Virus record (IMG/VR): IMGVR_UViG_3300046660_000329
Span: 1-52,611 of that record
Direction: 5' to 3' (one strand)
DNA length: 52,611 bases
Origin: a virus
Below are positions 6,401-46,094 of the stretch, in pieces. Positions within the stretch are counted from its first letter, which is position 1. Every line of letters begins with the position of its first letter. The position numbers were made by a program, and so were the translations under genes. A model generated the notes under the pieces. The model did no database searches. It saw only the letters and a list, made by a program, of their open reading frames with translations, and was not told where the DNA came from.

Positions 6401-8173
6401 GGACAGCAGGCAGTTGCCCGTTTCCGCTCCGCCCTGCACGGAGGAGCCCCGGTCCAAGGCGCCAACAACACCGGCTACTTCGGCATCGGCGGCTGGATCG
6501 GTGATGCAGGTTCCGCCCTGGCCGGGACCGTCAGCAAGGGTCTGGGCGTGCTCAAGGACGCCGTCCTGGGCGCTGTGGGTGTCGTAGCCAACCCGCTCCT
6601 GAACGCGGCCGAAAAGACCGTCAACACGCTCATCCCGGCGGACGGCGGATGGCACAACCTGGCCAACGGGGCTATGAAGCAGCCCATTGAGTGGATCAAG
6701 AGCTTCATCAACAAGGAAGACAAGAAGGCGCAGAGCGTCGGGGGAGTCATCCCGGCCGGACAGCACCTCGCGATCATCGACGCGGCACTGAAGGCCGCCG
6801 GTGCCCCGCCGCCCGGAACCAAGGAGCAGTGGGAAGCCGGGATGAACACGCTGATCCAGCGTGAGTCCGGGTGGAACGCCTCCGCCATCAACAACTGGGA
6901 CAGCAACGCGAAGGCAGGTCACCCGTCTCAGGGTCTGACGCAGACGATCCCGTCCACGTTCGCCGCGTATGTTCCGCCCGCGCTGCGGAGCCTGGGCATC
7001 CTCAACCCGATCGCCAACGTCGCGGCCTCCGTCCGCTACATCAAGTCCGTGTACGGCGGTATCCAGAACGTCCAGCAGGCGAACGCCAACAAGGCCCCCA
7101 AGGGCTACTGGACGGGTACCGACGGGGCGGCCCCGGGCCTTGCGTGGGTCGGTGAGAAGGGCCCCGAGCTGGTCGAGTTCCATGGCGGCGAGGTCGTTCA
7201 CAACCACATCGACTCCGCGCGTATGGCGGCGACCGGCAGCCTGCCCGGCTACGCCTCCGGTACCAAGAAGCAGCGGGCCGCCGTCCGTCATGCCTACAAC
7301 GAGCGGGACAACGACACGGACCGCCGTAACGCGGCCCAGAAGTCTTATAACGCGGCTCACACGAAGTACCTGAATGCCACCACGGTCAAGGAGCAGCAGG
7401 CCGCGCGCAAGGAAATGGACAAGTACGAGAAGCGGATCAACAACGCGAACAAGGAGATCGCGGCCGACAACAAGTTGATCAAGCTGAACGACAAGCGGTA
7501 CAAGGATGCTTCGGCGGCGGTCCGCAAGGAGCGGGCGGACGCTGCGGCCCTGGAAGCCGCCCGCAAGAAGTCGCAGAACGCGCAGATCTCGGCAATCAGG
7601 ACGGCGATCCAGAACAGGATCAACGCCGTGAAGGCCGAGATCGACGCAAAGATCCAGGTAGCTACCGATGCTCGTAACGGCTACTACGACGCGGCGAAGC
7701 AGAGCGGGCAACTGACCAACCTGACGGGCAACCGGGCGGCCGGGTTCACCCAGCAGCTCCAGGCCAAGATCACGGCTATCAAGAACTTCCAGGCCAACTT
7801 GCACAAGCTGGCCACCCTTGGTCTGTCCCAGGGTGTTATCCAGCAGATCGCGGCAATGGGTCCGGACCAGGGTGGGGCGCTTGCTCAGTCGCTTGCCCGG
7901 ACAACGACGGCAGCCGACGCGAAGGATCTGAACGCGAAATACGCGGAGCTGGACAAGGTCTCTGGACAGTACGCGGATTCCGCTGCCAATGACGGGTTCG
8001 GGTTGAGCAAGCTCAAGGCAGAATCCGCTGTCCTGTCCAAGACGAAAATTACTGTTACAGCACCTCATACGATCATGGTTACTATTGACGGAAAGACCTT
8101 CAAGGCCCACACGGAAGCGACCGTGGATGCGAAGGTGACCGAGATCGTAGCCGCTGCCGGAAAGAAGAAGTGA
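3461..8173 (+). CDS. Tape measure protein with lytic transglycosylase-like domain
   Basis: 1570 residues from GTG 3461, preceded by GAGGGAG. It sets tail length and is ejected during DNA entry. N-terminal coiled coil (about 1-70), Ala-rich helical region, hydrophobic membrane-like stretch at about 545-615 (SPLGVIITGVVLLIGVIVLI), Trp-rich repeats at about 660-830 in which GWHALGDGIMWVWHHVIK and AWHAMGDGVMWVWRHLIK are two copies, then a transglycosylase-like domain at about 1095-1215 with RESGWN (Glu1135 as likely acid) and QGLTQTIPSTF, and a charged helical region after 1265. The embedded muralytic domain would open the peptidoglycan locally. By the rule of about 1.5 angstrom per residue the tail should be near 230 nm. 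Confidence 0.92.
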   Translation: MSGTYSAGDIEASLKLDRSDFNRELTQAKRDAEDFQSQKYSPKVSLDDTEAKAKIQSLKQELQSLHNITVSAALSGFDGVTTQLAALQAQADHLNGMVITIRADVDTSAAARGLIWLDESITAMNTRSINIHADVDTRVAAASLAALRAAAADPITIRTRTDGDNPTPDPGVPGEPGDRNRNRRIGGGDGNSALFSKLFSLPGLIAAVAPQIPALTTLLGGATAAVTSFGVAAGGALGIYGAATMGAVKQATAHEKAVQSTDKALQAAQARLAGTTAGTTAYKNALKAATEAEKAHKKALDDLTPSEKLFTDSLNNTQTAWKQFIGATEAYTLLPVSTVLQGVTAALPKFIPLVKDLAPVVQGVAVSLKEWMSGDGLVRFVDFLRTYGVPIVKNTIEGFKGFLTAGGAIIRAFGPWAEKMSEFFKHIGEEADKWGRNGGPERFKDSVKRAWVQVEPILTGLWKLARHVWDVLNGTGQSNGSALANVISGVGTAVGTVKPAAVKAFTEIFTSISDVAVQLAPVIGITSKAIVDIINVLPPGTIRAIADAMIAWKLAMLGWSAAVAIWTGLTVVFGLAMDAWLLLSLAFALSPLGVIITGVVLLIGVIVLIATKTTWFQTIWKYTWNAIKVAWDYTWSAIKTAFSATVEFLRGKFGLLALLLGPIGAIAWIAANWQKVWGVIKGVWNDIVAGALWLWGYIKPVFHGIAVAFETMAMIFWKVHVTIIKVVFILLEAAVKALWVFVLKPVFGWIAAGWHALGDGIMWVWHHVIKAAWDQVAAGAGWVWTHGIKPAIGKITDAWHAMGDGVMWVWRHLIKPAFDLVAGGSTTLWKNHISPSFDGIKATISSKWDWLKKWVFSPMGTFFTKIIPGWADLMKGKLITAFDTAWKGIQKVWDNVKKAIGSPIYLVAKYVWNDAIYGIMNKISGFVHQKNPLGKIPLDNIPHFAAGGPVRGGTPGKDSVLSMLMPDEHVLTREDVAAMGGQQAVARFRSALHGGAPVQGANNTGYFGIGGWIGDAGSALAGTVSKGLGVLKDAVLGAVGVVANPLLNAAEKTVNTLIPADGGWHNLANGAMKQPIEWIKSFINKEDKKAQSVGGVIPAGQHLAIIDAALKAAGAPPPGTKEQWEAGMNTLIQRESGWNASAINNWDSNAKAGHPSQGLTQTIPSTFAAYVPPALRSLGILNPIANVAASVRYIKSVYGGIQNVQQANANKAPKGYWTGTDGAAPGLAWVGEKGPELVEFHGGEVVHNHIDSARMAATGSLPGYASGTKKQRAAVRHAYNERDNDTDRRNAAQKSYNAAHTKYLNATTVKEQQAARKEMDKYEKRINNANKEIAADNKLIKLNDKRYKDASAAVRKERADAAALEAARKKSQNAQISAIRTAIQNRINAVKAEIDAKIQVATDARNGYYDAAKQSGQLTNLTGNRAAGFTQQLQAKITAIKNFQANLHKLATLGLSQGVIQQIAAMGPDQGGALAQSLARTTTAADAKDLNAKYAELDKVSGQYADSAANDGFGLSKLKAESAVLSKTKITVTAPHTIMVTIDGKTFKAHTEATVDAKVTEIVAAAGKKK

Positions 8174-20724: not shown

Positions 20725-21251
20725 CCCCCATAGGCAAGACCACCGTCGTCCTGATCGCCGGAGCCCGCTGGCACCCCAACCCGGAGATCGCCACCACCGC
20801 TCTCGCCCGCTACGTCCTGAACGAGGCCCCCGGATGGGTCATCGTCCGGCACGGAGCCTGCCCCGGAAACCAGTCCATCGACCAGGCGGTATCCGAGTGG
20901 ATACGCGACTGCGGAGAAGCCCTCGGTGTCCTCGAAGACCCGATGCCCGCCGACTGGGACAGCTGCGGCCCCGGCTGCCCGCCCTACGGGATCATCGGCC
21001 ACCGCATTTTCAAGAGGCCTGGCGACGTGGCCCACCCCGGAAAGCTGGCCACCTACTGCCCGCAGGCAGGTGTCCGCCGCAACATCGCGATGACCCGCAA
21101 GAACCCCCGGGCGGACCGGGCGATCGCTGCCCCGTACGGCCAGTCGTTCGGCACCCGCAACTGCATCGGTCTGGCCCATGCCGCCAGCATCCCCACCACG
21201 GTTCTCGGTGACCGGTCCGCTCCCGCTGTTCTGATGGAGGCCCTGTTCTGA
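20721..21251 (+). CDS. SLOG-family (DUF2493/YspA-like) nucleotide-binding protein
   Basis: 176 residues. VVLIAGARWHPNPEI (strand-loop), GWVIVRHGACPGNQSIDQAV with WIRDCGEALGV, PADWD, then RRNIAMTRKNPRADRAIA and GTRNCIGLAHAASIPTTVL is the Rossmann-like SLOG pattern: a G-rich loop, an acidic helix, and a C-terminal GT motif. SLOG proteins bind nucleotides or nucleotide-derived ligands. The next gene is ThyX, suggesting a link to nucleotide metabolism, though this family also occurs as a sensor in defence systems. The exact substrate is unknown. Confidence 0.7.
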   Translation: MTPIGKTTVVLIAGARWHPNPEIATTALARYVLNEAPGWVIVRHGACPGNQSIDQAVSEWIRDCGEALGVLEDPMPADWDSCGPGCPPYGIIGHRIFKRPGDVAHPGKLATYCPQAGVRRNIAMTRKNPRADRAIAAPYGQSFGTRNCIGLAHAASIPTTVLGDRSAPAVLMEALF

Positions 21252-21967
21252 TGACTGCTGATCTCACCTTCAGCTCCAAGATCGACGTGAAGCTGATCCA
21301 GTTCACCGGAGACGACACCGGTATCTGCAACGCGGCCCGCGTCTCCACCCTCGGAGACTTGGCCGAGGGCGCCGGGTGCCCCACCAAGAACGCCGGACTG
21401 ATCAACTACCTGATGCGGGACCGCCACGGCAGTCCCTTCGAACACGGCTCCATGACGTTCTTCGTCAAGGCCCCGATCTTCGTCTTCCGCGAGTTCATGC
21501 GTCACCGTGTCGGCTGGTCCTACAACGAGGAGAGCGGACGCTACAAGCAGCTTGACCCGGAGTTCTACTACCCCGCCCCCGGCCGGAACCTTGTACAGAC
21601 CGGTAAGCCCGGCGCATACACGTTCGAACCCGGCGACGCCGAACAGTACGGGACCGTGCGGACCTACCTTCAGGACACCGCACAGGACGCGTACAAGGCC
21701 TACGAGTACATGCTCAAGTGCGGCATAGCGCGCGAGGTGGCCCGGATGTGCCTGCCGGTGAACATCTACAGCTCCGCCTACGTCACCTGCAACCCGCGCT
21801 CCCTCATGCACTTCCTGGGCCTGCGCACCCACCGCCCTGATGCCGCATTCGTGAGCAACCCCCAGCGGGAGATCGAGCTTGCGGCCGAGCAGATGGAAGA
21901 GATCTTCAAGGGCCTGTTCCCCGCCACCTGGAAGGCTTTCGAGCAGAACGGACGCGTGGCTCCCTAA
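21251..21967 (+). CDS. thyX: FAD-dependent thymidylate synthase
   Basis: 238 residues. RHRVGWSYNEESGRY (84-98) is the ThyX signature (RHRX7-8S); HGSPFEHGSMTFFVKAPIFV precedes it as in known ThyX proteins, and PRSLMHFLGLRTH lies in the C-terminal half. The enzyme makes dTMP from dUMP with methylene-tetrahydrofolate and reduced FAD. Phage copies support dTTP supply. Overlaps the SLOG gene and the next gene by single bases, so it is one operon with them. Confidence 0.93.
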   Translation: MTADLTFSSKIDVKLIQFTGDDTGICNAARVSTLGDLAEGAGCPTKNAGLINYLMRDRHGSPFEHGSMTFFVKAPIFVFREFMRHRVGWSYNEESGRYKQLDPEFYYPAPGRNLVQTGKPGAYTFEPGDAEQYGTVRTYLQDTAQDAYKAYEYMLKCGIAREVARMCLPVNIYSSAYVTCNPRSLMHFLGLRTHRPDAAFVSNPQREIELAAEQMEEIFKGLFPATWKAFEQNGRVAP

Positions 21968-22410: not shown

Positions 22411-22685
22411 CAGATCAGATGCCCCGCGCCGTCACCCCAGGGGAGCTTTCCGCGATCCTCCGCAGTGACGATGACGGACCGGACGCCCTGTACCCCTGCC
22501 GCATCGGCGTTTTCTGCGACGCGTGCCACGCCGTGGAAGAACGGGACTTCCTGGTCAACGACCGGACCAGCAAGCCGGAACGCCTGGAACTGATCCGGGC
22601 ATTCGCTTGCACTCTGGGCTGGTCCATCAACGCCTATGGGGACTGGTGCCCCCCGTGCGTGGCGGCCGGGAAGGCGGAGGGGTGA
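22407..22685 (+). CDS. Small protein with two CxxC pairs
   Basis: 92 residues from GTG 22407, overlapping the previous stop (GTGA). CDACHA and CPPCVA give a two-CxxC zinc ribbon separated by 43 residues with the helical insert RTSKPERLELIRAFACTL. Such phage zinc ribbons usually bind nucleic acid or a transcription protein. Coupled to its neighbours on both sides. Function unknown. Confidence 0.6.
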   Translation: MTDQMPRAVTPGELSAILRSDDDGPDALYPCRIGVFCDACHAVEERDFLVNDRTSKPERLELIRAFACTLGWSINAYGDWCPPCVAAGKAEG

Positions 22686-22921
22686 ACGCGTACTGGAGCT
22701 ACCTCCTGACCGCTGTGGGACTCCTCGGGCTGTGGCTGGCCGGTCGGAAGAGTTCAGGCGGCTGGGCCGTCGGGATCGGCGCACAGGCCCTTTGGATCGT
22801 CTACGCGGTTGCCACCCAGCAGTGGGGTTTTATCGTCTCTGCCTTGCTGTACGGGTTCGTCTACTGCCGCAACTTCATCACCTGGCGCAAGACCGAACTG
22901 GAGCAGGAGACCACGGCGTGA
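22682..22921 (+). CDS. Small membrane protein, PnuC-like pattern
   Basis: 79 residues from GTG 22682, overlapping the previous stop. Two or three membrane segments: YWSYLLTAVGLLGLWLAG (4-21), GWAVGIGAQALWIVYAVATQ, and WGFIVSALLYGFVYCRN, then RKTELEQETTA as a charged tail. The WIVYA...QWGF...YGFVYCRNF order recalls half of the nicotinamide riboside transporter PnuC, but the protein is far shorter. Could bring a nucleotide precursor, or be a plain membrane protein. Confidence 0.6.
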   Translation: MNAYWSYLLTAVGLLGLWLAGRKSSGGWAVGIGAQALWIVYAVATQQWGFIVSALLYGFVYCRNFITWRKTELEQETTA

Positions 22922-23283
22922 CTGAGTTCGTCACCAAGGACAGCGGGAAGCGGGAGCAGTACGTCACGGGCATGCAGCGGGACACTCAGGAGGGGAAGGC
23001 CCGGTTCGACCTGATGTTCCCAATGGGAGTGCCCTACGAGGAGCAGTTCCTCACCCGCTTCGCCCAGCTGCTGGCCCGAGGAGCAACGAAGTACACGGAG
23101 CGAAACTGGGAGAAAGCGGCAACTCAGGAGGAGTTGGACCGCTTCCGAGCGTCCGCCGCACGGCACCTCACCCAGTGGATGGCTGGTGACCAGGATGAAG
23201 ATCATGCGGCTGCGGTCGTGTTCAACCTGCTGGCCTACGAGACCACGTTCTACAAGGTGAACCAGGTCGAAACAACGGAATGA
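22918..23283 (+). CDS. dATP/dGTP diphosphohydrolase-like protein (MazG/MazZ-type, DUF5664)
   Basis: 121 residues from GTG 22918 (longer in-frame versions would overlap two genes). GKARFDLM, FAQLLARGATKYTERNWEKA, DRFRASAARHLTQWMAGDQD and AAVVFNLLAYE match the DUF5664 pattern, an all-alpha pyrophosphohydrolase fold with an acidic metal site. Members hydrolyse dATP/dGTP to the monophosphates; in some phages (MazZ) this feeds 2-aminoadenine DNA synthesis. No PurZ is in this window, so the wider pathway is unproven. Last gene of the thyX operon. Confidence 0.65.
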   Translation: MTEFVTKDSGKREQYVTGMQRDTQEGKARFDLMFPMGVPYEEQFLTRFAQLLARGATKYTERNWEKAATQEELDRFRASAARHLTQWMAGDQDEDHAAAVVFNLLAYETTFYKVNQVETTE

Positions 23284-23464: not shown

Positions 23465-24487
23465 GTGCCTCGCGTAGATGGAAAGCCCGTTCCTCCGGGC
23501 ACTCCTACCACACCCGCCCTCAGCGCCGTGCCCCCCGTGGACAGCGGCCCGTTCGATCCGATGGAAATGCTCGGACTCGTACCGCTGGAAGAAGCCGCCG
23601 AACACACCAACGCGATGTTCTTCGGAGACGCCGGTACCGGCAAGACGTCATGCATGGCGTTCCTCGCCAACCTCCCCGGCGACGGCATCACCGTCATCGT
23701 CAACGCAGAGGGCGGCCTGAAGAAGGACGCGCTGAAGCGGCTGGGGGTCGACACCGCCAAGGTAGTGCTCTTCCCCGACCGCAGCAAGGGCGAGGAAATC
23801 TCTTACAACTCCCTGGAGACCCTGCTCTACCGCCTGCGTAACGCCCTCCAGAGGTCGCCGGGCTGCATCAAGGGCGTCGGCTTCGACTCGTCCACCGACC
23901 TGTGCGCAAGCCTCCTTCAGGACATCACGGCCTACGCCTACGAGAAGGACCAGAACCTTCCGCAGATCCAGAAGGACAAGCGGATGGCCGAGGGCAAGCA
24001 GCTCCGCGAGAGCGTCCACGCGACGCAGCTCCAGGACTACGCCCTTCTGACCAACCAGATGCGCACCCTGATGCGCGGATTCCGGGATCTGGGCTGCCAC
24101 TTCGTCGTTACCGCCCTGGAAAAGGACGACGCGCTCAACGACATGGGCACCAAGGCCACCGGCCCCGAACTGCCCGGCAAGACGTCCGCCTCCCTGCGCG
24201 GTTACGTCGACCTTGTGCTCCGCTTCACCGCCGAGACCCTCAAGACCGGCCCCGGACAGCAGGAGACGCTGGTCGTCGCCGAGACCAAGGCCTCCCTGAC
24301 GAAGCTGTGCAAGGACCGCGACGGCGTCCTCCCCTTCGATCTGGTCAACCCGACGTTCGACCGGGTTCACAAGTACGTCAAGGGCGAGCTGACCGAAGCG
24401 AACGACCCGGAAATCGAGCGTTACCGGCAGGTCCGGGCCAAGGCCGAGGCTTTCCGCATGGCCCGCAAGCAGCGCCCCGCAGCCTGA
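23465..24487 (+). CDS. Sak4-like RecA-fold ATPase (single-strand annealing/recombination)
   Basis: 340 residues from GTG 23465. Walker A GDAGTGKTS (54-62, Lys60), Walker B KGVGFDS (Asp141) and a beta-strand core VIVNAEGGLKKD fit the Sak4/RecA-like ATPases common in actinophages, which help single-strand annealing together with an SSB partner. The C-terminal part (VKGELTEANDPEIERYRQVR) is helical and basic at the end. The next gene has an SSB-like tail, the expected partner. An alternative is a UvsX-like or AAA loader. Confidence 0.78.
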   Translation: MPRVDGKPVPPGTPTTPALSAVPPVDSGPFDPMEMLGLVPLEEAAEHTNAMFFGDAGTGKTSCMAFLANLPGDGITVIVNAEGGLKKDALKRLGVDTAKVVLFPDRSKGEEISYNSLETLLYRLRNALQRSPGCIKGVGFDSSTDLCASLLQDITAYAYEKDQNLPQIQKDKRMAEGKQLRESVHATQLQDYALLTNQMRTLMRGFRDLGCHFVVTALEKDDALNDMGTKATGPELPGKTSASLRGYVDLVLRFTAETLKTGPGQQETLVVAETKASLTKLCKDRDGVLPFDLVNPTFDRVHKYVKGELTEANDPEIERYRQVRAKAEAFRMARKQRPAA

Positions 24488-24530: not shown

Positions 24531-25187
24531 ATGCCGAAGCTGAACCCGAACCAGGTCGCCGCCGCCCAGGCCCAGGGCTACGAGGAGAAGTCCGAGGAGC
24601 TGAAGCCGCTGCCGATCGCCGACGGCAAGCCGTACGTGTACAAGCTCGTCGGTTGCACGTCCGGCCCGGCGAAGAGCAACCCGTCCAAGATCCAGTGGAC
24701 CTGGGAGATGACGCTCGACGGGCTTTACCACCCGGAGTTCGTCGGCAAGGGCTACCTGGAGCGGATCTGGCACTACACCCCCGTGGACGGCGGGCAGGAG
24801 TGGGCCATCGCCAAGATGCTGCACGCGTTCGGCTACAGCCCGGACACCGACACGGACGAACTGATCAACGATGAGGCGACCGTCCTGGCGTTCCTCACGC
24901 TGGACTCGTACGGCACCCCGCCGAAGGTCACGATGAAGGCCCGCCGGTTCGCCTACCACGATGAGACGGAGTTCCCGCCCGCGCAGGGTACCGAACCGCC
25001 GTTCGGCGGCGCCGACGACCCGAACGTCCCGGCTCAGGCCTACGCGTCCGTGGCGGCTGCTCAGCAGGCCCCGAGTGCTGTCGCTGTGACGGCTCCTGCG
25101 GATGACCCTTGGGCGAAGGCCCCGGAGACCCCGGCTGCGGCTTCTGTCCCGCCGCAGGCTCAGGCGGACGAGAACGACACGTTCTAG
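24531..25187 (+). CDS. Probable phage ssDNA-binding protein with acidic tail
   Basis: 218 residues, ATG with GAGGATAAAAG upstream. The first 145 residues are beta-rich (YVYKLVGCTSGPAKS, KIQWTWEMTL, VTMKARRFAY) in OB-fold style. Residues 150-210 are Ala/Pro-rich and disordered, and the end is ADENDTF: an acidic tip with terminal Phe, as in the SSB tail (DDDIPF) that recruits partner proteins. Location after the Sak4-like ATPase supports an SSB or a Sak4 partner. Family not confirmed. Confidence 0.65.
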   Translation: MPKLNPNQVAAAQAQGYEEKSEELKPLPIADGKPYVYKLVGCTSGPAKSNPSKIQWTWEMTLDGLYHPEFVGKGYLERIWHYTPVDGGQEWAIAKMLHAFGYSPDTDTDELINDEATVLAFLTLDSYGTPPKVTMKARRFAYHDETEFPPAQGTEPPFGGADDPNVPAQAYASVAAAQQAPSAVAVTAPADDPWAKAPETPAAASVPPQAQADENDTF

Positions 25188-25318: not shown

Positions 25319-25603
25319 ATGGAAGAGCCAACCCGGCAGCGCGGAGCGTCCCCCTCCAAGGCAGCCCGCACACCCGAAGAGGCCATGGCAATCGCCCGCA
25401 AGAGGCCCGGCTACAAGGTGCTTGCCTCGCAAGGCCACCAGAAGTTCGGGGCCCGGGTCAAAGCCAACGACATCCGCTCTGGCAAGCGAGGACCCTGGAA
25501 GCAGTACTTCGGAGAAGTCCGCACGTCGGCGATGAAGCAGCCCGACGGAACGTACAACGTGTACGTATATGTCGAGCCCGAGACCGCCCCTCTCGACGAC
25601 TAG
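25319..25603 (+). CDS. Small basic protein of unknown function
   Basis: 94 residues from ATG 25319, with AAGGAGCC before it. Lys/Arg-rich N-terminal half (ARTPEEAMAIARKRPGYKVL, VKANDIRSGKRGPWKQYF) and an acidic C-terminus (YVEPETAPLDD). The basic part could bind nucleic acid. It is a single-gene unit between its promoter and a terminator at 25657, directly before the polymerase gene. No family recognised. Confidence 0.55.
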   Translation: MEEPTRQRGASPSKAARTPEEAMAIARKRPGYKVLASQGHQKFGARVKANDIRSGKRGPWKQYFGEVRTSAMKQPDGTYNVYVYVEPETAPLDD

Positions 25604-25729: not shown

Positions 25730-27733
25730 ATGCAAACCACAGCACCCGTACAGCACCGGGTCCAGATCCTCCCCTCTCAGCTTCCCGCCGGGCTCACCAC
25801 ACCGGTCGCCTTCGACTTCGAGACCTCCGCCTTGTATTTCGACGAGGGCGGCATCGCTACCGCGTCCGTCGCCTGGTTTGAGAACAACATCGAGGACGCG
25901 GACCACATTCGCACCGCCGCGTTCCCCTTCGCCCAAGGAGAGGAAGGCAAGCCGGACTGGAACGGCCAAGAGGCTCTGTTCGGCAGTGCCGAGGACACCA
26001 ACCTCCCCCTTGAGGAGTGGAAGGCTCTCACCGCGTGGCTCAGCCAGCAGCGGCTGATCGCCCACAACGCCCAGTTCGATGTGATCATGGCCGCCGGTGG
26101 GGTCATGTCCTACCGGTGGGGCAACGGATACGGCATCGACCTGTCCGAACAGCTGTACTGGGACACCATGTTGGCGAACTACGTACTGTGGCCCCGGCAC
26201 CCTCTCGGCCTCAAAGAGACCGCTGACCGGCTGTGGCCGGGCGAAGGCCAGAAAGACTCTCAGGAGCGGCTCAAGCAGCACCTGAAGAACCAGAAGAAGA
26301 AGCGCGGCAACAAGGGCGGCGTCCGCTACGACCTGGCCAACTGGGAGGTCATGGAGCAGTACGCCGACGACGATGCGCACAAGGCCCTCCGGCTGTACCT
26401 CGTACAGAAGAAAGAGTTCAAGGCCCCCGACCACCCGCAGTACCACCACCTCAAAGCCACTCAGCTGCCCGTCCTGCGGCTCCTGGTGGAAGAAGAGAAG
26501 CGGGGCATGCCCTACGCCGTGGAAGCCTCCCGTGCAGCCGCACAGCGCATCGAACCGGTCAAGCAGAAGCTAGCCAGCCAGCTTCCCTTCCTGCCCACCG
26601 GAGACCACGCCAAGAACTACTTCTACGGCGACGCGGATCAGACGAACGTCCGGGGCCACAAGTCCTTGGGGCTGTCTCCCGCTTACCGCAGCCCGAAAAC
26701 CGGAGAACCCTCCCTCAACTCCGAAGCGCTCCGGGAACTGGCCGAGCAGGAAGTTCCGTGGGCGCAAGAGTGGCAGACGTACACCCTGCTGGACCGCGCC
26801 CAGTCGATGTACTACAACGGGTGGGCCGACAAGTGCGGGCCGGACAACAGGATCCGCGCGCGGATCCGGCAGGTGGGCACCGTCTCCACCCGGTTCAGCA
26901 TCGAGCGGGCCAACCTCCAGGCCATTCCTCACGGACGCAAGCTGGAAGGCCTCGCCTTCGTGGGACTGAGCGACCTGCCCACCCCGCGCGCGCTGATCCG
27001 GCAGCAGGTGGTCGACACCATGCCCGGCTGGGTCCTCATGGAGTACGACCTGTCGCAGGCAGAGTTGCGCCTCGGGGCCTTGCTGTCCAACTGCAAGAAG
27101 ATGCTGGAGGCGTATTTCAACGACGTCGACCTGCACACGTTCACCGCTGAGCAGCTCGGAACACCCCGGCAGGTGGGCAAGGTCGCGAACCTGTCACTGG
27201 AGTACGGCGCCGGACCGACGACGCTCGGGAACATGATGGTCAAGATGACCGGCGGCATGGTCAAGATGCAGCCCTGGGAGCTGAAGGAGGTCCATGCGGG
27301 CTTCCACCGGACGTACCCGGAGCTGAATCAGGCCATCGAGCGGTGGGACAACTTCGCCCGCCGCAACAAGTTCGTCCCGCTGATCGGCGGTCAGAACCGG
27401 TATATCCGTTTTGGTGAAGATACCCGTTTGGCCTGGAATCAGCACGTACAGGGCAGTTTGGGCCAGTACATGCTGCACTGGCTGCTGGAAATCGAGGGCA
27501 TCGGACACCGGCTGGGCGTGCACAAGCGGGCCAAGCAGGACGGTATTGGCGGGGCCGGGCTGCTCATGGAAGTCCACGACTCGGCAATCAACCTGATCCC
27601 GGCAGACCTGGAAGAAGAGTTCTCGTACCTGGTCAAGAAGGCAGGCGTGGACTTGTGGCGCGACTACTTCGGCTACATCAACGGAGGTGTCCCCATGAAG
27701 GTGGACGGCAAGCCGTTCGCAGAAGGAGAATGA
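25730..27733 (+). CDS. Family A DNA polymerase with 3'-5' exonuclease
   Basis: 667 residues. Exonuclease: DFET (Asp29, Glu31), HNAQFD (Asp117), YADDD (Tyr211, Asp215). Polymerase: motif A EYDLSQAELR (Asp440), motif B RQVGKVANLSLEYG (Arg480, Lys484, Tyr492), motif C EVHDS (His616, Asp617). No 5'-3' exonuclease domain. The residue equal to E. coli Phe762 is Leu488, and the Glu after the motif C Asp is Ser618, as in some phage PolA lineages. Replicates the phage genome. ATG preceded by GGGAGTAACC; no clear promoter seen upstream apart from the region after the terminator. Confidence 0.95.
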   Translation: MQTTAPVQHRVQILPSQLPAGLTTPVAFDFETSALYFDEGGIATASVAWFENNIEDADHIRTAAFPFAQGEEGKPDWNGQEALFGSAEDTNLPLEEWKALTAWLSQQRLIAHNAQFDVIMAAGGVMSYRWGNGYGIDLSEQLYWDTMLANYVLWPRHPLGLKETADRLWPGEGQKDSQERLKQHLKNQKKKRGNKGGVRYDLANWEVMEQYADDDAHKALRLYLVQKKEFKAPDHPQYHHLKATQLPVLRLLVEEEKRGMPYAVEASRAAAQRIEPVKQKLASQLPFLPTGDHAKNYFYGDADQTNVRGHKSLGLSPAYRSPKTGEPSLNSEALRELAEQEVPWAQEWQTYTLLDRAQSMYYNGWADKCGPDNRIRARIRQVGTVSTRFSIERANLQAIPHGRKLEGLAFVGLSDLPTPRALIRQQVVDTMPGWVLMEYDLSQAELRLGALLSNCKKMLEAYFNDVDLHTFTAEQLGTPRQVGKVANLSLEYGAGPTTLGNMMVKMTGGMVKMQPWELKEVHAGFHRTYPELNQAIERWDNFARRNKFVPLIGGQNRYIRFGEDTRLAWNQHVQGSLGQYMLHWLLEIEGIGHRLGVHKRAKQDGIGGAGLLMEVHDSAINLIPADLEEEFSYLVKKAGVDLWRDYFGYINGGVPMKVDGKPFAEGE

Positions 27734-37349: not shown

Positions 37350-40300
37350 ATGTCGTTACCTCCCGGTTTATCGACGGTCACCGTATCGGGCCGGGTCACT
37401 CGTCCCGGTCAGGGCACCAGCCCTGATCCGCTGGTCGGCCGTATCACGTTCATTCCTGACGCCTCGCAGGTATTGGCCACCGCTTCCGGGGCGATCATCA
37501 TGGGCACCGTCACCGCTGAACCTGACGGCGCGGGGAATTTTCAGGCGGTACTCCTTGCCCCTGATGCCACCGGTATTTCTCCCACCGGCTGGACGTACTC
37601 GGTACGGATCGATTTCATCGGGACAACGGATCCCGAGGTTTTCCACATCGTGCTGTCCAAGAACACTCCGACGGTCAACCTGACGACCCTCATTCCTGCG
37701 GGCCCGTCTCTCGGCAATGTCACCGGCAGTGCCACCATCTCAGGTGACCTGCACGTCTCAGGGGACCTTTCGGTCGGCGGGACCGCCAGCATTCATGCCC
37801 TGCCGCATGCCTCAAGCCACGCTGTGGGCGGCAGCGACCCGGTCACCCCCGCTTCCATCGGAGCCGACCCCGCCGGAGCGGGTGCAGCCGCGCAGGCGTA
37901 TGCGGACACTCTGGTGCCCAACGACTGGATCAACGTCCGCAAAGCCCCTTACAACGCGGCCGGGGACAGCATCACCGACGACCGTGCGGCCATTCAGGCG
38001 GCGATCAACGCCGCGCAGGCACGCGGAGGCGGCACCGTCTACCTTCCCGCCGGTACGTACGGGCTCGGGGCGACGCTGAACATTCCGGCGGGGGACGGCA
38101 TTCAGATCGTCGGGTCCGGCTGGAAATCCGTCCTCAAGATCATGTACGGGGCGAACTGCTACGCCATCACCTTCCCCGCAGCGGACACCCGCATCGCCAT
38201 CCGGGACCTGACGATCGACGGCAACTGTGGCAGCCAGACCACCGCTTCAGGCGGCATCTACGCTGCGGGAGCGGTCGCCTGCGACTTCGAGCACATCCAC
38301 TTCATCGCCTGCCGGGACAGCGCGCTGTATCTCGGCCCGCAGACCGGCGGCGCGTTCGGCCACAACAACCGGGTCGCCCGCTGCCTGTTCGACCAGTCCA
38401 TGAACTCGACCGGTGCGGGCCGTGGCATCCACATGAACAGCTCGGACGAGAACCAGATCCTGGGCTGCGACTTCGAATATCTGGGCGGATCCGGCGGTAC
38501 CGGATCCGGTACCGCTTCCATGATCTACGACCAGGCCGGTACCCAGTTCATCTCCGACTGCAACTTTGTCAACGGCGCCAACAACGTCATCGGTGTCCGG
38601 GTGCAAGACGCCAAGTCCACCAAGATCAGCGGATGCAACTTCGACGGTCTCGCCGGAACCGCGATCTTCCTCGCGGCACAGCGGTGCATCGTCACCGGCA
38701 ACACGATTTTCTCCCCGGGGCACTCCGGTACAGCGGGCCAGGCCTCCGGCATCCACCTGGAGTACGGCACCGCAGACAACATCATCGCGGACAACGTCAT
38801 CACGTCCGACGCGGCCAACGGCATCTCCCGGGGCGCCATCCGCGAAGCCTCCGACGGCGCCGCCGGTGGCAACAACATCAGCAACAACACGATCGTCACC
38901 CTGGGCACCTGGTCCTATGCCGCGCTCGACCTCAGCGGCAAGGGCTCCCAGGTAGTGGGCAACATCGGCGGAGGCCTGCCGGGCAACCAGGGACTGTTCA
39001 TCAACCCCAAGACGCCCGCTTACAAGGCGGTCGGAGACGGCGTCACAGACGACACCGCCGCGATCCAAGCCGCTATCAACGACTGCCCGCAGGGCGGCAC
39101 CGTCTACCTTCCCAGAGGCGTCTACGGCACTACCGCACCGCTGACCGTGCCTCCCGGGGTCACGCTCCAGATGCCCCGGGCCAGCCTCATGGTCGGCGCC
39201 GGTCTCACCAACCCGCCGTGCGCGATCAAACCGCTGGCCTCGTTCAGCGGAGCCGCTGTGATCGTGCTGAAAGACGCGGCCACCGGCGGATATGGCGCCG
39301 TGTCAGCGGAACAGCGGCTGACCGACGTCCAGATCGACGGCTCCGGGTACACCGCTACCGCTCTGGACGGCATTCAGGCCAAAGGGAACGTGCAGAACGT
39401 CGCCATGCGGGGCGTCACCGTCCGCTACATGTCCGGCAACGGCATCTTCACCGGGGTCAACGCGGGCGCCTACCCGTACTCGTGGCGGCTGTACCGGGTG
39501 ATGTCCGACAACAACCAGGGCCACGGATTCTCCTTCACCCTGATGACCGACATCACGATGTTCGACTGCCAGGCCATCGGTAACGTGGCCAACGGCTTCA
39601 ACCTGGTGAACCTGGCCAACAGCCAGCTCACCAACTGCCGGTCCGAATGGAACGGGAACTACGGCTACCTGTTCACCGGCAGCTGGGGATCCGGGGTCAG
39701 TTCCGGCGGTATGCAGATGACCGGCTGCTCCACCGACCGCAACGGTTTCGACGGCATCCGCATCGATTCCACCGGCACCGTGCCGTACGTCTTCAGCGGA
39801 CTCATGCTGCGCCGGGACGGACGTAACGGAGGTGCTGGGGGAGGCGGTTACGCTGCCTTCGCCACCTACGGAGCCACCACCCCGGTCGTGGTGTCCGGAC
39901 TGACCGTGTTCCCTGGAGTCGACGACGGCGGAGCGGGGACGAACAGCCCGCAGTACGGCGTCAACGTCCAGAGCGTCACCTCCCTGTTCAGCCTGAACAA
40001 CGCCTACGTGCAGGCGGCTACTACCGCTGTGCGGGATGACGGAACAAACGGTGCGGTGCTCATCGGGCCCGACGTGTTCACCGCGACGGGCACCACTGCT
40101 GCCCCTGTCGTTGCGGCCACGGCCCCGTGGAACTGGCTGGGTACCGCTATCGCACGGCACACGGCGGCTGCGTCGAACATCCTGGAAGGCCGGGTGGCCG
40201 GTGAAAACTTTTCCCGGGCGGTGATGCGGGCGGACGGGATGATCGTCCTCGGGAACGGCACCGGCGCCCCTGACACGACCGGCTTCTACCGCGAGTCTGC

Positions 40301-40655
40301 GGGCAACCTGAAGACCGATGCGTTCCTGGTGATGAACGGGAGCGGGCAGTCCAACGGAACGTTCACCGTGTGGGGTGCGGACAAGAAGGCGCTCAAGGCC
40401 GGATCCCCGGGCGCGGGTGTGTCGGTTGCGGAGGGCGCCAACGCCCGTTTGGGCGTGGCAACCCTGGTAGCGGGTACGGTCACCGTCTCCAACACGAGTG
40501 TGGCGGCGAATACCCGTATTTTCCTGTCCCGGGCTACAGCGGGCGGCACGCTGGGCCAGCTGTCGTACACGGTGAATGCGGGTGTCGGCTTCACGATCAA
40601 CGCCTCGACTGCTGAAACGTCCACGGTGAACTGGATGCTTGTCGAGCCTGCGTAG
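37350..40655 (+). CDS. Tail spike with two pectate-lyase-like beta-helix domains
   Basis: 1101 residues, CAGGAGAAC before ATG. Residues 1-170 repeat the short fibre N-terminus. Residues about 193-570 and 577-900 each start with a pectate-lyase superfamily entry motif: GDSITDDRAAIQAAINAAQ with GGGTVYLPAGTYG, and GDGVTDDTAAIQAAINDC with GGTVYLPRGVYG, followed by NxI/VxxN parallel beta-helix coils. The C-terminal 200 residues (NFSRAVMRADGMIVLG, TVSNTSVAANTRIFLS) form a trimer head. Right-handed beta-helix spikes bind and usually cut surface polysaccharide, which suggests a capsule or wall glycan receptor. Confidence 0.85.
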   Translation: MSLPPGLSTVTVSGRVTRPGQGTSPDPLVGRITFIPDASQVLATASGAIIMGTVTAEPDGAGNFQAVLLAPDATGISPTGWTYSVRIDFIGTTDPEVFHIVLSKNTPTVNLTTLIPAGPSLGNVTGSATISGDLHVSGDLSVGGTASIHALPHASSHAVGGSDPVTPASIGADPAGAGAAAQAYADTLVPNDWINVRKAPYNAAGDSITDDRAAIQAAINAAQARGGGTVYLPAGTYGLGATLNIPAGDGIQIVGSGWKSVLKIMYGANCYAITFPAADTRIAIRDLTIDGNCGSQTTASGGIYAAGAVACDFEHIHFIACRDSALYLGPQTGGAFGHNNRVARCLFDQSMNSTGAGRGIHMNSSDENQILGCDFEYLGGSGGTGSGTASMIYDQAGTQFISDCNFVNGANNVIGVRVQDAKSTKISGCNFDGLAGTAIFLAAQRCIVTGNTIFSPGHSGTAGQASGIHLEYGTADNIIADNVITSDAANGISRGAIREASDGAAGGNNISNNTIVTLGTWSYAALDLSGKGSQVVGNIGGGLPGNQGLFINPKTPAYKAVGDGVTDDTAAIQAAINDCPQGGTVYLPRGVYGTTAPLTVPPGVTLQMPRASLMVGAGLTNPPCAIKPLASFSGAAVIVLKDAATGGYGAVSAEQRLTDVQIDGSGYTATALDGIQAKGNVQNVAMRGVTVRYMSGNGIFTGVNAGAYPYSWRLYRVMSDNNQGHGFSFTLMTDITMFDCQAIGNVANGFNLVNLANSQLTNCRSEWNGNYGYLFTGSWGSGVSSGGMQMTGCSTDRNGFDGIRIDSTGTVPYVFSGLMLRRDGRNGGAGGGGYAAFATYGATTPVVVSGLTVFPGVDDGGAGTNSPQYGVNVQSVTSLFSLNNAYVQAATTAVRDDGTNGAVLIGPDVFTATGTTAAPVVAATAPWNWLGTAIARHTAAASNILEGRVAGENFSRAVMRADGMIVLGNGTGAPDTTGFYRESAGNLKTDAFLVMNGSGQSNGTFTVWGADKKALKAGSPGAGVSVAEGANARLGVATLVAGTVTVSNTSVAANTRIFLSRATAGGTLGQLSYTVNAGVGFTINASTAETSTVNWMLVEPA

Positions 40656-41849: not shown

Positions 41850-42064
41850 TGAACGACTACTTGGAAACTCAACGGGATATCCGCCGACATGCCCTGGAGA
41901 TGGCAACCCGTAGCAGCGTTCCAGGAACCGGCACCATCGCGGTAGTAGACAGAGCGCACTACTACGCGCACTACCTGAACGGGGACAGCACCGTCAACTG
42001 CAACAACAGGTGCCCCTTCGCCCCTCCCAAGGTCACCGGGGGACTGGACCTCGGCAAGGACTGA
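41849..42064 (+). CDS. Small protein of unknown function
   Basis: 71 residues, ATG overlaps the lipoprotein stop (TGATGA). Helical start NDYLETQRDIRRHALEMATR and a Cys-containing end (CNNRCPFAPPKV). Expressed with the lipoprotein. No family recognised. Confidence 0.5.
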   Translation: MNDYLETQRDIRRHALEMATRSSVPGTGTIAVVDRAHYYAHYLNGDSTVNCNNRCPFAPPKVTGGLDLGKD

Positions 42065-42077
42065 CCCCGGACAGCGA

Positions 42078-42116
42078 GAAAGCCCCTTCCGACCGAACCG
42101 GAAGGGGCTTTCTCTG
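42078..42116. terminator. Bidirectional terminator between convergent genes
   Basis: GAAAGCCCCTTCCG (42078-42091), loop ACCGAAC, CGGAAGGGGCTTTC (42099-42112), a perfect 14-base stem with T-rich sides on both strands. It separates the plus-strand unit from the minus-strand gene at 42151. Confidence 0.9.
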
Positions 42117-42150
42117 TGCGTGGGGAACCTGCCGCCTGAACGGCACAAAG

Positions 42151-42426
42151 TCAGCGGTTGCGCGGGTAGTCCTCCATCAGAACCGCCCACCGGGCCACCA
42201 TGTTGGAACCCTCGGGGCCGATCACGGCGTTGGCGGGGACACCGTTCGCGTAGCACTCCGCTACAAAGTCGGTGACCGCGTCCAGCGTCGGGGCACCTGC
42301 CATGGGACGTACAAACGTCTTGGGGCGCATCGGGTGGATGTTCTGATATTGGGCAGCCACTTTCGGGTCCAGGCGGGGCAAGGGGTCCTCCAGGGCAGAC
42401 AAGATGGGCGACAGGTTCTCGGACAT
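42151..42426 (-). CDS. Minus-strand small protein, leaderless
   Basis: 91 residues, ATG at 42426. Sequence MSENLSPILSALEDPLPRLD, PKTFVRPMAGAPTLDAVTDF, and AVIGPEGSNMVARWAVLMED. No recognised family; the protein has an orderly helix-strand pattern. The start lies six bases after a TAGCGG -10 (minus strand), the same distance as for the gene at 29005, so it should be leaderless. Ends 39 bases from the bidirectional terminator. Confidence 0.6.
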   Translation of the reverse strand: MSENLSPILSALEDPLPRLDPKVAAQYQNIHPMRPKTFVRPMAGAPTLDAVTDFVAECYANGVPANAVIGPEGSNMVARWAVLMEDYPRNR

Positions 42427-42441
42427 AATCTACCGCTATCC
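42427..42441 (-). promoter_or_regulatory. Minus-strand phage promoter, leaderless type
   Basis: On the minus strand GGATAGCGGTAGATT then ATG: TAGCGG at 42438-42433 followed by the conserved TAGAT part and a six-base gap to the start. It is a variant of TGCTAGGGTAGATCT at 28990. Confidence 0.5.
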
Positions 42442-42517
42442 GTTGCGAAAATCCCACCCGGTATCGGCCAAAGAGATATGCTCCACAATGGTTGAGTCGC
42501 CTGCTTCAACCGCTCCA

Positions 42518-43649: not shown

Positions 43650-43737
43650 ACTGGTTCTGCTCCAAACGCTGCGAGGCCCAAAAGGCCCGCTGACCTGCGG
43701 TAATTGGTACTTGTTCTTCGATGTTTAACGTGGCATG

Positions 43738-43746
43738 ATCCTAACA
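43738..43746 (-). promoter_or_regulatory. Minus-strand extended -10 TGTTAGGAT
   Basis: Minus-strand TGTTAGGAT (43746-43738) 88 bases before the start at 43649. It overlaps the leader of the plus-strand gene at 43767, so the two units probably interfere. The plus strand shows TTGTTC (43711-43716), 17 bases, CATGAT (43734-43739). Confidence 0.45.
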
Positions 43747-43766
43747 TTGTTGAAGGAGGATCAGCT

Positions 43767-43946
43767 ATGTCCAAGAACACCGCTTTCATCGGGTTCCGCG
43801 CCCCCGAATGGATGGCAGACGGCATCAAGGCCGTCGCCGAGAAGCGCCGCGTACCCGCCGACTCCATCGTCCTGCGGTGGGCCCTCGAAGACCTGCTCGC
43901 CCGGGAAGGCATCACCGAACCCGACGCCGAACACACCGCAGCCTGA
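43767..43946 (+). CDS. Ribbon-helix-helix-like DNA-binding protein
   Basis: 59 residues from ATG 43767 with GAAGGAGGATCAGCT before it. KNTAFIGFRAPEWMADGIKA, VAEKRRVPADSIVLRWALED, LLAREGI has the beta strand followed by two helices of Arc/CopG type, with ADS at the turn. A short dimeric repressor is likely. It is divergently arranged with the two-gene minus operon, a typical setting for autoregulation of both. Confidence 0.65.
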   Translation: MSKNTAFIGFRAPEWMADGIKAVAEKRRVPADSIVLRWALEDLLAREGITEPDAEHTAA

Positions 43947-44000: not shown

Positions 44001-45815
44001 ATGGGTCAGACGATCAATCAGCACACCGAACAGGACCCGCAGACACTCGCTACCGGGACGCTCGACACCGGCTATCTGTCCTCGGTCAACGGTGTCCTGT
44101 GTGTCCAGGCGATGAAGACCGTTGAAGTAGACGGCAAAGAGAAGCGGGTGGAAGTCCCGGAGGAGTACGCCAACTTTGACATCAAAGCCCGTGCGGTCAT
44201 CCGAGACGACACCACCAGTACATGGGACGTCCGGTTCACCCGCAAAGCAGACGGGGCGCCCATCGACGACCTCGTACCCGCTGCCGTCCTCACCGACCGC
44301 CGCAAGACCGAAGCGTGGCTGGCAAACCACGAACTGACGTGCGGAGACCCCATCGGTATCCGGGGACGCTTCCAGCCGGGACAGCGGATCATGCGCTACC
44401 TGATTCACCAGAAGCCCAAGCCCGCGAAGATCGTGCGGCAGCTCGGCTACCACGACCATCTCCGGATGTTCCTCACCCCCAAGGGCGTGATCATCCCCGG
44501 AGAGATCGACTTCGACAACGCGCTGCCGTACCTGCCCGCTTGCAAGCTGGACAAGACGAACCCGCTGCCGTTCTCGTTCGGGTTCTCCCACCGTGGCGTC
44601 GGCGAGGTGCGGGAAGTCCTCGCGGAAGTCCTCGGGTTCCATGATGAGACCGCTACCGCTCTGTTCGCCTCATGGTCCGTTATGTCCCTCATCCAGTCCG
44701 CTCTGATGAGCTACGTGGACCACTTCCCGGTGTTCGCGGTGGAAGCACCGTCAGGTACCGGCAAGACGACCGGCGCCCTGTCCATGCTGGCTGAGCTGCT
44801 CACCGGCTACAGCATGGGAGAGTCCCAGACGACGCTTCCGGTGACCCGGGATCTCATCGCCTCCACATGGTCCGGCTTCATCCACACAGACGACCTGGAT
44901 GACCCCAAGCGCCTGTTTGAGCTGTTGCGTCTGTCGACGGCGAAGGGCACCGCCGGTAAGAAGGTCCCGGGTGCTACGGGTGCGTTCGGCAGCAACGGTC
45001 TGATCCAGCTGACGGGTTCCATGTACATCACGGGCGAGTACCTGGGGATGAACGAGGAGAAGGCTCTTCTGGACCGTGTGGTGAAGATCGGTCTGACGTC
45101 GCCGGTGGACCGCAAATCTCTCCGTCCGGGCCGTGAGCACGTGTCGCAGGGACGCGATTTGAAGGAGATGCAGCGGAGGTATCCCCGGGAGTGGGGTGGT
45201 CTGGCTGCGATTTCGGCCACGGTGATTTCCGAGGTTCTTCTGTATGTGGACCGGCTGTGTGAGCTGGTTGATCTTCTGAGGCCTTCCAGTGGTCGTGCGG
45301 GAGACAAGTACGCCGTGCTGCTCGCGGGGGCACGCATGGTGGACTGCCTGCTCGGTGACACCTACGCCTGGAATGGCGAGGGCATGACAAGCCAGCGGGT
45401 GCAGACCTGGGTGAACGGAGAACTCAACACCACCAGCTTCGACGGGGACAACAAGCTGACGCTCAAGGTGATCCCGGAGATCCTGGCGCTCGGCCTCCGC
45501 CCGGGGGAGTCGTTCAAGGGCGTCAAGATTGAATACCCGCCGTGCGGGTTCCACCGTCACGCCCGCAGCGGAGAGGTCCGGCTGTTTTTCCAGGACAACC
45601 TGCTCCCGCTGTTCTGGGAGGTGTTCAAGGGCGGTCACAACGTGGACAAGCGGACCGAGTCGGCATCGTCGCTGCGGGGGCAGGCCGAGGGTATGGGGTT
45701 CATCAAGAGCCAGCAGATCATCATCGAGGGGGTCAACCGACGGGTGTGGGTCGCTCCGCCGGAGGTGACGGAGACGATGCTCCAGCGGGTCCCTGATAGC
45801 ACCGTGTACGGCTAG
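44001..45815 (+). CDS. Primase/helicase-type P-loop ATPase (DUF927-like)
   Basis: 604 residues from ATG 44001. The N-terminal 200 residues are beta-rich (DIKARAVIRDDTTSTWDVRF) and probably bind DNA; Walker A EAPSGTGKTTG has Lys255; WSGFIHTDDLDD provides acidic Walker B and arginine-finger region AGKKVPGATG; the C-terminus ends with a winged-helix-like part (LFFQDNLLPLFWEVFKGG, SSLRGQAEGMGFIKSQQ). The layout resembles DUF927 and D5-like primase-helicases that load at phage origins. The iteron array begins two bases after the stop, which supports an origin-related role. Confidence 0.75.
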   Translation: MGQTINQHTEQDPQTLATGTLDTGYLSSVNGVLCVQAMKTVEVDGKEKRVEVPEEYANFDIKARAVIRDDTTSTWDVRFTRKADGAPIDDLVPAAVLTDRRKTEAWLANHELTCGDPIGIRGRFQPGQRIMRYLIHQKPKPAKIVRQLGYHDHLRMFLTPKGVIIPGEIDFDNALPYLPACKLDKTNPLPFSFGFSHRGVGEVREVLAEVLGFHDETATALFASWSVMSLIQSALMSYVDHFPVFAVEAPSGTGKTTGALSMLAELLTGYSMGESQTTLPVTRDLIASTWSGFIHTDDLDDPKRLFELLRLSTAKGTAGKKVPGATGAFGSNGLIQLTGSMYITGEYLGMNEEKALLDRVVKIGLTSPVDRKSLRPGREHVSQGRDLKEMQRRYPREWGGLAAISATVISEVLLYVDRLCELVDLLRPSSGRAGDKYAVLLAGARMVDCLLGDTYAWNGEGMTSQRVQTWVNGELNTTSFDGDNKLTLKVIPEILALGLRPGESFKGVKIEYPPCGFHRHARSGEVRLFFQDNLLPLFWEVFKGGHNVDKRTESASSLRGQAEGMGFIKSQQIIIEGVNRRVWVAPPEVTETMLQRVPDSTVYG

Positions 45816-45817
45816 AA

Positions 45818-46094
45818 CTGCTAGGCGGTACTGCTAGCGGCACTGCTAGAGCAAGAATGTGAGAGGCTATCACCTCCGAGGGGGGAAGTGATAGCCTCTC
45901 ACGCTTTTCCAGTTCTAGCAGGAGCGCTAGCAGTACCCGTAGCACCAAAGACACCCCCTCTGATCAGGCATATAGCAGTTCTAGCAGTTCTAGCAGTAAT
46001 TTTTAGCCTTACGCGCGTACTCTCCTCCGTTCCTGTCTTGGGGGGTCTATCTCACTATGGGGCTCACGTTTCCGAAATCACTGCTAGTTGCTAG
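45818..46094. other. Probable replication origin with CTGCTAG iterons
   Basis: CTGCTAG at 45818, 45831, 45843 (starts 13 and 12 bases apart), then a perfect 15-base inverted repeat GTGAGAGGCTATCAC/GTGATAGCCTCTCAC (45859-45902), then CTAGCAG at 45915, 45927, and, with ATAGCAG at 45972, at 45981 and 45990 (nine bases apart), followed by AATTTTTAG, and CTGCTAG at 46081 with TTGCTAG at 46088. About ten iterons in two orientations around a central hairpin and an AT-rich part, next to a primase/helicase gene. The stretch up to 46470 has no credible gene. Confidence 0.75.
45859..45902. repeat. 15-bp perfect inverted repeat inside origin
   Basis: GTGAGAGGCTATCAC (45859-45873), 14-base loop, GTGATAGCCTCTCAC (45888-45902), then GCTTTTCC. 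May double as the helicase terminator. Confidence 0.75.

Follow-up and report, generated by a model that had tools for sequence, protein, structure and literature searches.

The DNA under study is the IMG/VR record IMGVR_UViG_3300046660_000329, whose full 52,611 nt (positions 1-52,611) are referred to here as the window. Next to the helicase gene 44001 lies a compact region in which the octamer ACTGCTAG occurs ten times on both strands, seven copies being exact and three carrying one mismatch (Table 1). This direct reading bears out the original prediction, which had described about ten CTGCTAG/CTAGCAG copies in two orientations at spacings of 12-13 and 9 bases. The copies fall into four sets, and the degenerate first copy of set 1 overlaps the stop codon of the helicase gene. 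Exact CTGCTAG is found eight times in the array region and four times elsewhere in the 52.6 kb, the chance expectation for the whole record being 3.8. Counted per 300 bp, the best words are CTGCTA (nine copies), ACTGCTA (eight) and ACTGCTAG (seven); the corresponding maxima for hexamers, heptamers and octamers in 1000 dinucleotide-preserving shuffles of the region are 6, 4 and 3. Whichever of these word lengths is counted, the array is the top 300-bp segment of the record, and no other segment comes near it. Rfam and tRNA searches returned no matches.

Table 1. Coordinates of the features discussed in the text
Feature	Position	Strand	Remarks
Sak4	23465-24487	+	replication cassette
g55-like	24531-25187	+	replication cassette
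g57-like	~25325-25567	+	replication cassette
DNA polymerase A	25730-27733	+	replication cassette
TGCTAG(G/T)GTAGAT boxes	28306, 28990, 29240, 35017, 47157, 47866, 48612, 48965, 50707, 51024, 51335	+	
TGCTAG(G/T)GTAGAT variant	42605		
Putative initiator helicase gene	44001..45815	+	604 aa; predicted SaPIbov1 Rep / SCCmec Cch fold; no primase domain
Walker A, SGTGKTT	44751..44771	+	residues 251-257; AAA+ domain
C-terminal winged-helix domain	45453..45791	+	~residues 485-597; proposed iteron reader
Whole putative origin	45808..46094	both	repeats, statistics, position kept in relatives
Iteron set 1, four copies	45808..45849	+	start-to-start 9/13/12; first copy degenerate
Iteron set 2, two copies	45915..45934	-	start-to-start 12
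Iteron set 3, three copies	45972..45997	-	start-to-start 9 and 9
Iteron set 4, one exact copy and one TGCTAG	46080..46094	+	
ACTGCTAG, exact	45817-45824, 45830-45837, 45842-45849, 46080-46087	+	
ACTGCTAG, exact	45927-45934, 45981-45988, 45990-45997	-	
ACTGCTAG, one mismatch	45915-45922 (-), 45972-45979 (-), 45808-45815 (+)	both	
Further TGCTAG	46089-46094	+	set 4
Hairpin, 15-bp perfect inverted repeat	45859-45873/45888-45902		between iteron sets 1 and 2; 19 bp at 95% when extended
AT-rich patch	45976..46011		overlaps and abuts set 3; candidate melting site

The perfect 15-bp inverted repeat and the AT-rich patch that had been noticed in the array were likewise recovered. The former is flanked by sets 1 and 2; the latter overlaps set 3, sits between sets 3 and 4 and reaches 67% AT in 30 bp (starts 45976-45982), a value equalled by 0.06% of 30-bp windows. 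The hairpin (45859..45902) also scores as a terminator, and it may act as a terminator, an extrusion site or both. Because the iterons are inverted here, sets 1 and 2 fold together with the hairpin as one stem-loop of about 125 nt (285-nt DNA fold, z=-6.1). One could envision an origin of the pRN1 kind, in which replication requires such a large stem-loop and the repeats merely make up the two sides of a long cruciform; pRN1, which has no iterons, depends on a 100-nt stem-loop immediately 3' of its replication gene (PMC4234260). This appears unlikely, however, since the long stem is a consequence of the inverted iterons, many relatives carry large direct-repeat arrays, copies distant from the hairpin change with the others (see below), and the product of 44001 lacks the Prim-Pol that characterizes the replication protein of pRN1-type replicons.

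The adjoining gene had been taken for a primase/helicase gene, a description of which the helicase part stands and the primase part does not. The 44001 product matches PHROG 5177 ("DNA polymerase/primase", 876 aa; E=9e-89) over profile residues 302-874 only, and it is devoid of the Prim-Pol and PriCT_1 domains present at the N-terminus of its longer (880-aa) relatives. No Prim-Pol was found in the 52.6-kb record, which may be incomplete; three relatives of the 44001 subgroup have a separate Prim-Pol gene elsewhere. Within the Walker A motif, S251, K255 and T256 are invariant in alignments of 19 and of 46 sequences. An AlphaFold model made with 46 sequences (pLDDT 88.3, pTM 0.84) was matched by Foldseek to the SCCmec protein Cch (5dgk, E=3e-14) and to SaPIbov1 Rep (8tch, E=5e-12). 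In VIA comparisons, Cch was the best fold match (Z 19.8, 459 aligned residues, rmsd 4.8, residues 16-604), followed by SaPIbov1 Rep (Z 17.3, 449 aligned, rmsd 5.7, residues 22-604), and the next chains, at Z 11.3, were other AAA+ helicases. The predicted structure is thus that of SaPIbov1 Rep and Cch across the N-terminal, AAA+ and C-terminal winged-helix domains. Modelled alone, the C-terminal domain (pLDDT 91.5) has its best VIA match in residues 453-561 of SaPIbov1 Rep, with a modest Z of 6.0 that is tied with other winged-helix DNA-binding proteins; Foldseek gave no significant match for this domain alone. As a sequence-profile search of the PDB with the helicase produced no significant match, the proposed kinship with Rep and Cch rests on the fold. 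It is supported by weak DUF927 (PF06048) matches in 17 of 46 relatives (E<=0.5, best 4.6e-5); the window protein itself has no DUF927 match.

No close relatives of the window were found by nucleotide comparison, or by a single-protein search of IMG/VR and GTDB. An alignment query matched 80 loci in IMG/VR and none in GTDB, and the helicase family matched 147 sequenced phage records, many of them culturable. Repeat arrays lie in the gaps beside the homologous gene in phages of Streptomyces, Arthrobacter, Microbacterium and Micrococcus and in IMG/VR contigs, with words that include GATACAC, GTTACAG, TGCTAGAAC, GGGTAAC, GATTACA, CTTACCA, CAGAACA and TGGAACA and have a mild TGT/TAAC bias in common. 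Dereplication at about 85% identity left 50 loci; in 25 of them the gene adjoins the locus's strongest heptamer cluster, and these clusters use 23 different words. A second form of this test gave 28 of 50, whereas 300 sets of random anchors averaged 5.4 and did not exceed 13. About 15 of the 50 relatives have no cluster beside the gene. In three loci (L008, L014 and L019) a gene is inserted after the helicase and the array lies beyond the insert, so that L008 is array-less only next to the gene itself; in the Gordonia phages L009 and L016 no array was detected. In most of the window's closest relatives (L020-L033), the array is located just upstream of the gene and not downstream. The upstream regions of these same loci, within 500 bp of the helicase, also keep boxes that are not iterons, namely GCAGGTCAGAG, an alternating CG/CA stretch and ACGTGTTAGGGT. 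Another locus, L073, has two adjoining arrays after the helicase gene (~5700-6600), one with many copies of GCGTTACC and one with GGTGTAC about 12 times. With iterons masked, words that include ACGCGCG and CCCCTCT are enriched over 38 origins.

The usual order of genes in the relatives is Sak4, g55, primase-helicase, origin, small gene(s) and PolA. In the window, neither a gene nor an array lies between the g55-like and g57-like genes, and the slot that holds helicase and origin in the relatives is empty. Helicase and array are found together at 44.0-46.1 kb, apart from the Sak4-g55-g57-PolA cassette at 23.5-27.7 kb, which argues that they moved as a unit. Close to the replication genes are a gene for a ThyX-type thymidylate synthase and a dATP/dGTP diphosphohydrolase-like gene (21251-21967 and 22636-23283), a possible sign of nucleotide-pool control or of a modified base. 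Farther along, positions 37350-40655 encode a tail-spike-like protein with a pectate-lyase-like domain and a K1 capsule lyase C-terminal domain.

Korravirus offers a closer view of how the arrays change. We compared twelve distinct genomes with alignable arrays; about 19 of the 105 matched Arthrobacter phage records were used. The arrays fall into a TGTTAC and a TGTAAC class that differ by a single base, with the copies of either strand making the switch jointly. Class membership is tracked by only 7 of the 2191 variable sites over 5.2 kb; the origin contains five of these, and the PolA region and the helicase contain one each. Four of the five origin sites clearly correspond to one iteron position, on either strand and with the expected complement, and the remaining variable spacer sites do not follow the class. 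Because two copies had served to define the classes, only the remaining copies count as independent evidence. The members of the pairs L003/L040 and L054/L011 are 94-95% identical over the helicase, yet belong to opposite classes. Concerted change of this sort is the pattern expected of sites that are read by one protein. Within the helicase, the class-following site falls on the first base of codon 859, which lies in the predicted wing and encodes V with TGTAAC and L or T with TGTTAC. This single site is about what a random split would give and is notable only by its location in the wing; the C-terminal excess in Korravirus has p=0.010 locally and 0.147 family-wise. The comparison suggests that the helicase might be the protein that reads the Korravirus iterons. 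A covariation scan along the helicase in 56 diverse loci did not single out the C-terminal domain, with peaks also at residues 77-148 and 335-374.

Repeated words next to a hairpin that scores as a terminator could also be regulatory. In this scenario, operators, commonly repeated elements, would make up the array together with a terminator and control the genes beyond 46471; the protein bound there would be the tandem-HTH 42644 or the product of 43704-43946, both encoded just upstream. We find this very unlikely: the 42644 and 43704 proteins are not conserved with the arrays (3 of about 99 loci for each), no good promoter match overlaps the array, the next clear gene begins some 375 bp on, and what the arrays consistently adjoin is the helicase gene. 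The original prediction had also named 42644 for a gel-shift test of iteron binding, and it is a poor candidate binder because its tblastn relatives are confined to those three loci while iterons are widespread. The 43704-43946 product, which reads like a ribbon-helix-helix protein, and that of 42010-42495 are found only in the window and in two other loci; one of these, L031, also has its iterons (GATTACA) downstream of the helicase. Some partition sites are made of short direct repeats bound by ribbon-helix-helix proteins, and the presence of such a gene upstream might suggest a centromere-like partition site, or a recombination site, in place of an origin. This idea is hardly tenable given that a scan of window proteins (small ORFs in part) revealed no partition ATPase and that the gene which the arrays follow is one for an initiator-type helicase and not for partition.

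A link between replication and transcription had been proposed from the TGCTAG common to the iteron and the promoter core. The longer element TGCTAG(G/T)GTAGAT accounts for 11 of the TGCTAG copies outside the origin, and several of these boxes have a TTG-type hexamer about 17-18 bp upstream; from its sequence, it looks like the extended -10 promoter element of the phage. None of the origin copies continues into this element, and the iterons of relatives are quite different. We rejected the link, as the overlap amounts to six letters shared by chance.

Comparison strongly supports the proposal that the window has its phage origin here with the initiator gene adjoining: the arrays have a conserved place next to a helicase with the fold of an initiator, their copies change in concert, and gene and array have been relocated together. 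GC skew, which had been suggested as an indicator, has no clear switch at 46 kb. We put at roughly 85% the probability that 45808-46094 is the phage origin and 44001-45815 encodes its dedicated initiator. This reading is based on the repeat array and its statistics, on the fold predicted for the protein, on the adjacency maintained in relatives and on the way in which the relatives' copies change in concert. The 44001 protein would be an AAA+ helicase of the SaPIbov1 Rep/SCCmec Cch type that works as a ring. By its fold, its adjacency and the literature on such proteins, we infer that its C-terminal winged helix binds the ACTGCTAG iterons that start at its own stop codon. Several molecules might then gather on the mutually facing iteron sets on the two sides of the hairpin, beside the AT-rich patch, and form facing rings. 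These rings would melt the DNA at the patch and load as the fork helicase, after which the phage DNA polymerase A, presumably the product of 25730, would copy the DNA.

To our knowledge, the origins of most actinobacterial phages are unknown. Two surveys of Arthrobacter and Microbacterium phages are silent on iterons and on origins, and a wider search of open-licence papers found no description of these actinophage origins; a SaPI-like rep-ori module in free-living actinophages is apparently new to the literature. The analysis provides concrete predicted origins and an initiator for a family present in 147 phage records (for example, Korra at ~33.15-33.5 kb) and connects predicted actinophage origins with a staphylococcal satellite replication system. 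It is tempting to speculate, with somewhat less than even confidence, that many actinobacterial phages carry portable rep-ori modules of the SaPI type in which the word turns over fast while gene and array stay linked. Each lineage would have its own "password", near relatives might ignore each other's origins, and a residue in the wing may underlie the Korravirus switch. Near-identical phage pairs with different iterons constitute a natural test of how an initiator changes its recognition site.

Several known systems invite comparison. Like the window with its putative origin, pRN1 has a stem-loop and a helicase-type protein with a C-terminal winged helix (ORF904) whose origin lies directly downstream; unlike the window, it has a Prim-Pol joined to an SF3 helicase, and no iterons. 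The RepA/pi initiators of iteron plasmids are small winged-helix Rep proteins without a helicase motor, whereas 44001 has an AAA+ motor with an invariant Walker A. The "DNA primase/polymerase" genes of Korravirus, Goodmanvirus and Streptomyces phages such as LazerLemon have a homologous helicase part (28-35% identity) and adjoining iteron arrays. They differ from 44001 by a fused N-terminal Prim-Pol and PriCT_1, by their iteron words and by lying, together with the origin, within the Sak4-PolA cassette. The FireCastle iteron, TGCTAGAAC, is close to the window's word.

The closest parallels are in staphylococci. Cch, a DUF927 protein related to SaPIbov1 Rep (PMC7581432), is carried by the staphylococcal chromosome cassette and is 12% identical to 44001. 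SaPI Rep reportedly reads, through its C-terminal domain, the iterons that come right after the rep gene (PMC7581432). In PICIs, the origin adjoins the 3' end of the initiator gene and has an AT-rich region flanked by two iteron sets, and rep-ori segments replicate plasmids (PMC6092414). The SaPIbov1/PICI replicon shares with the window the full-length fold, predicted for 44001, of the initiator helicase, including the C-terminal winged helix, and iterons immediately 3' of the gene in several sets near an AT-rich stretch, the window array being a putative origin. There are also differences: protein identity is about 13%, the window has a hairpin between two iteron sets, no primase gene (pri), adjacent or fused, was found in its record, and the iteron word of the phage family varies by lineage. 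Moreover, PICI satellites have no virion gene set of their own, whereas the window record has tape measure, tail and tail-spike genes, placing the module in a tailed-phage genome. The module is most likely a SaPI-like rep-ori that has been adopted by, or is shared with, tailed actinobacterial phages, and not a PICI.
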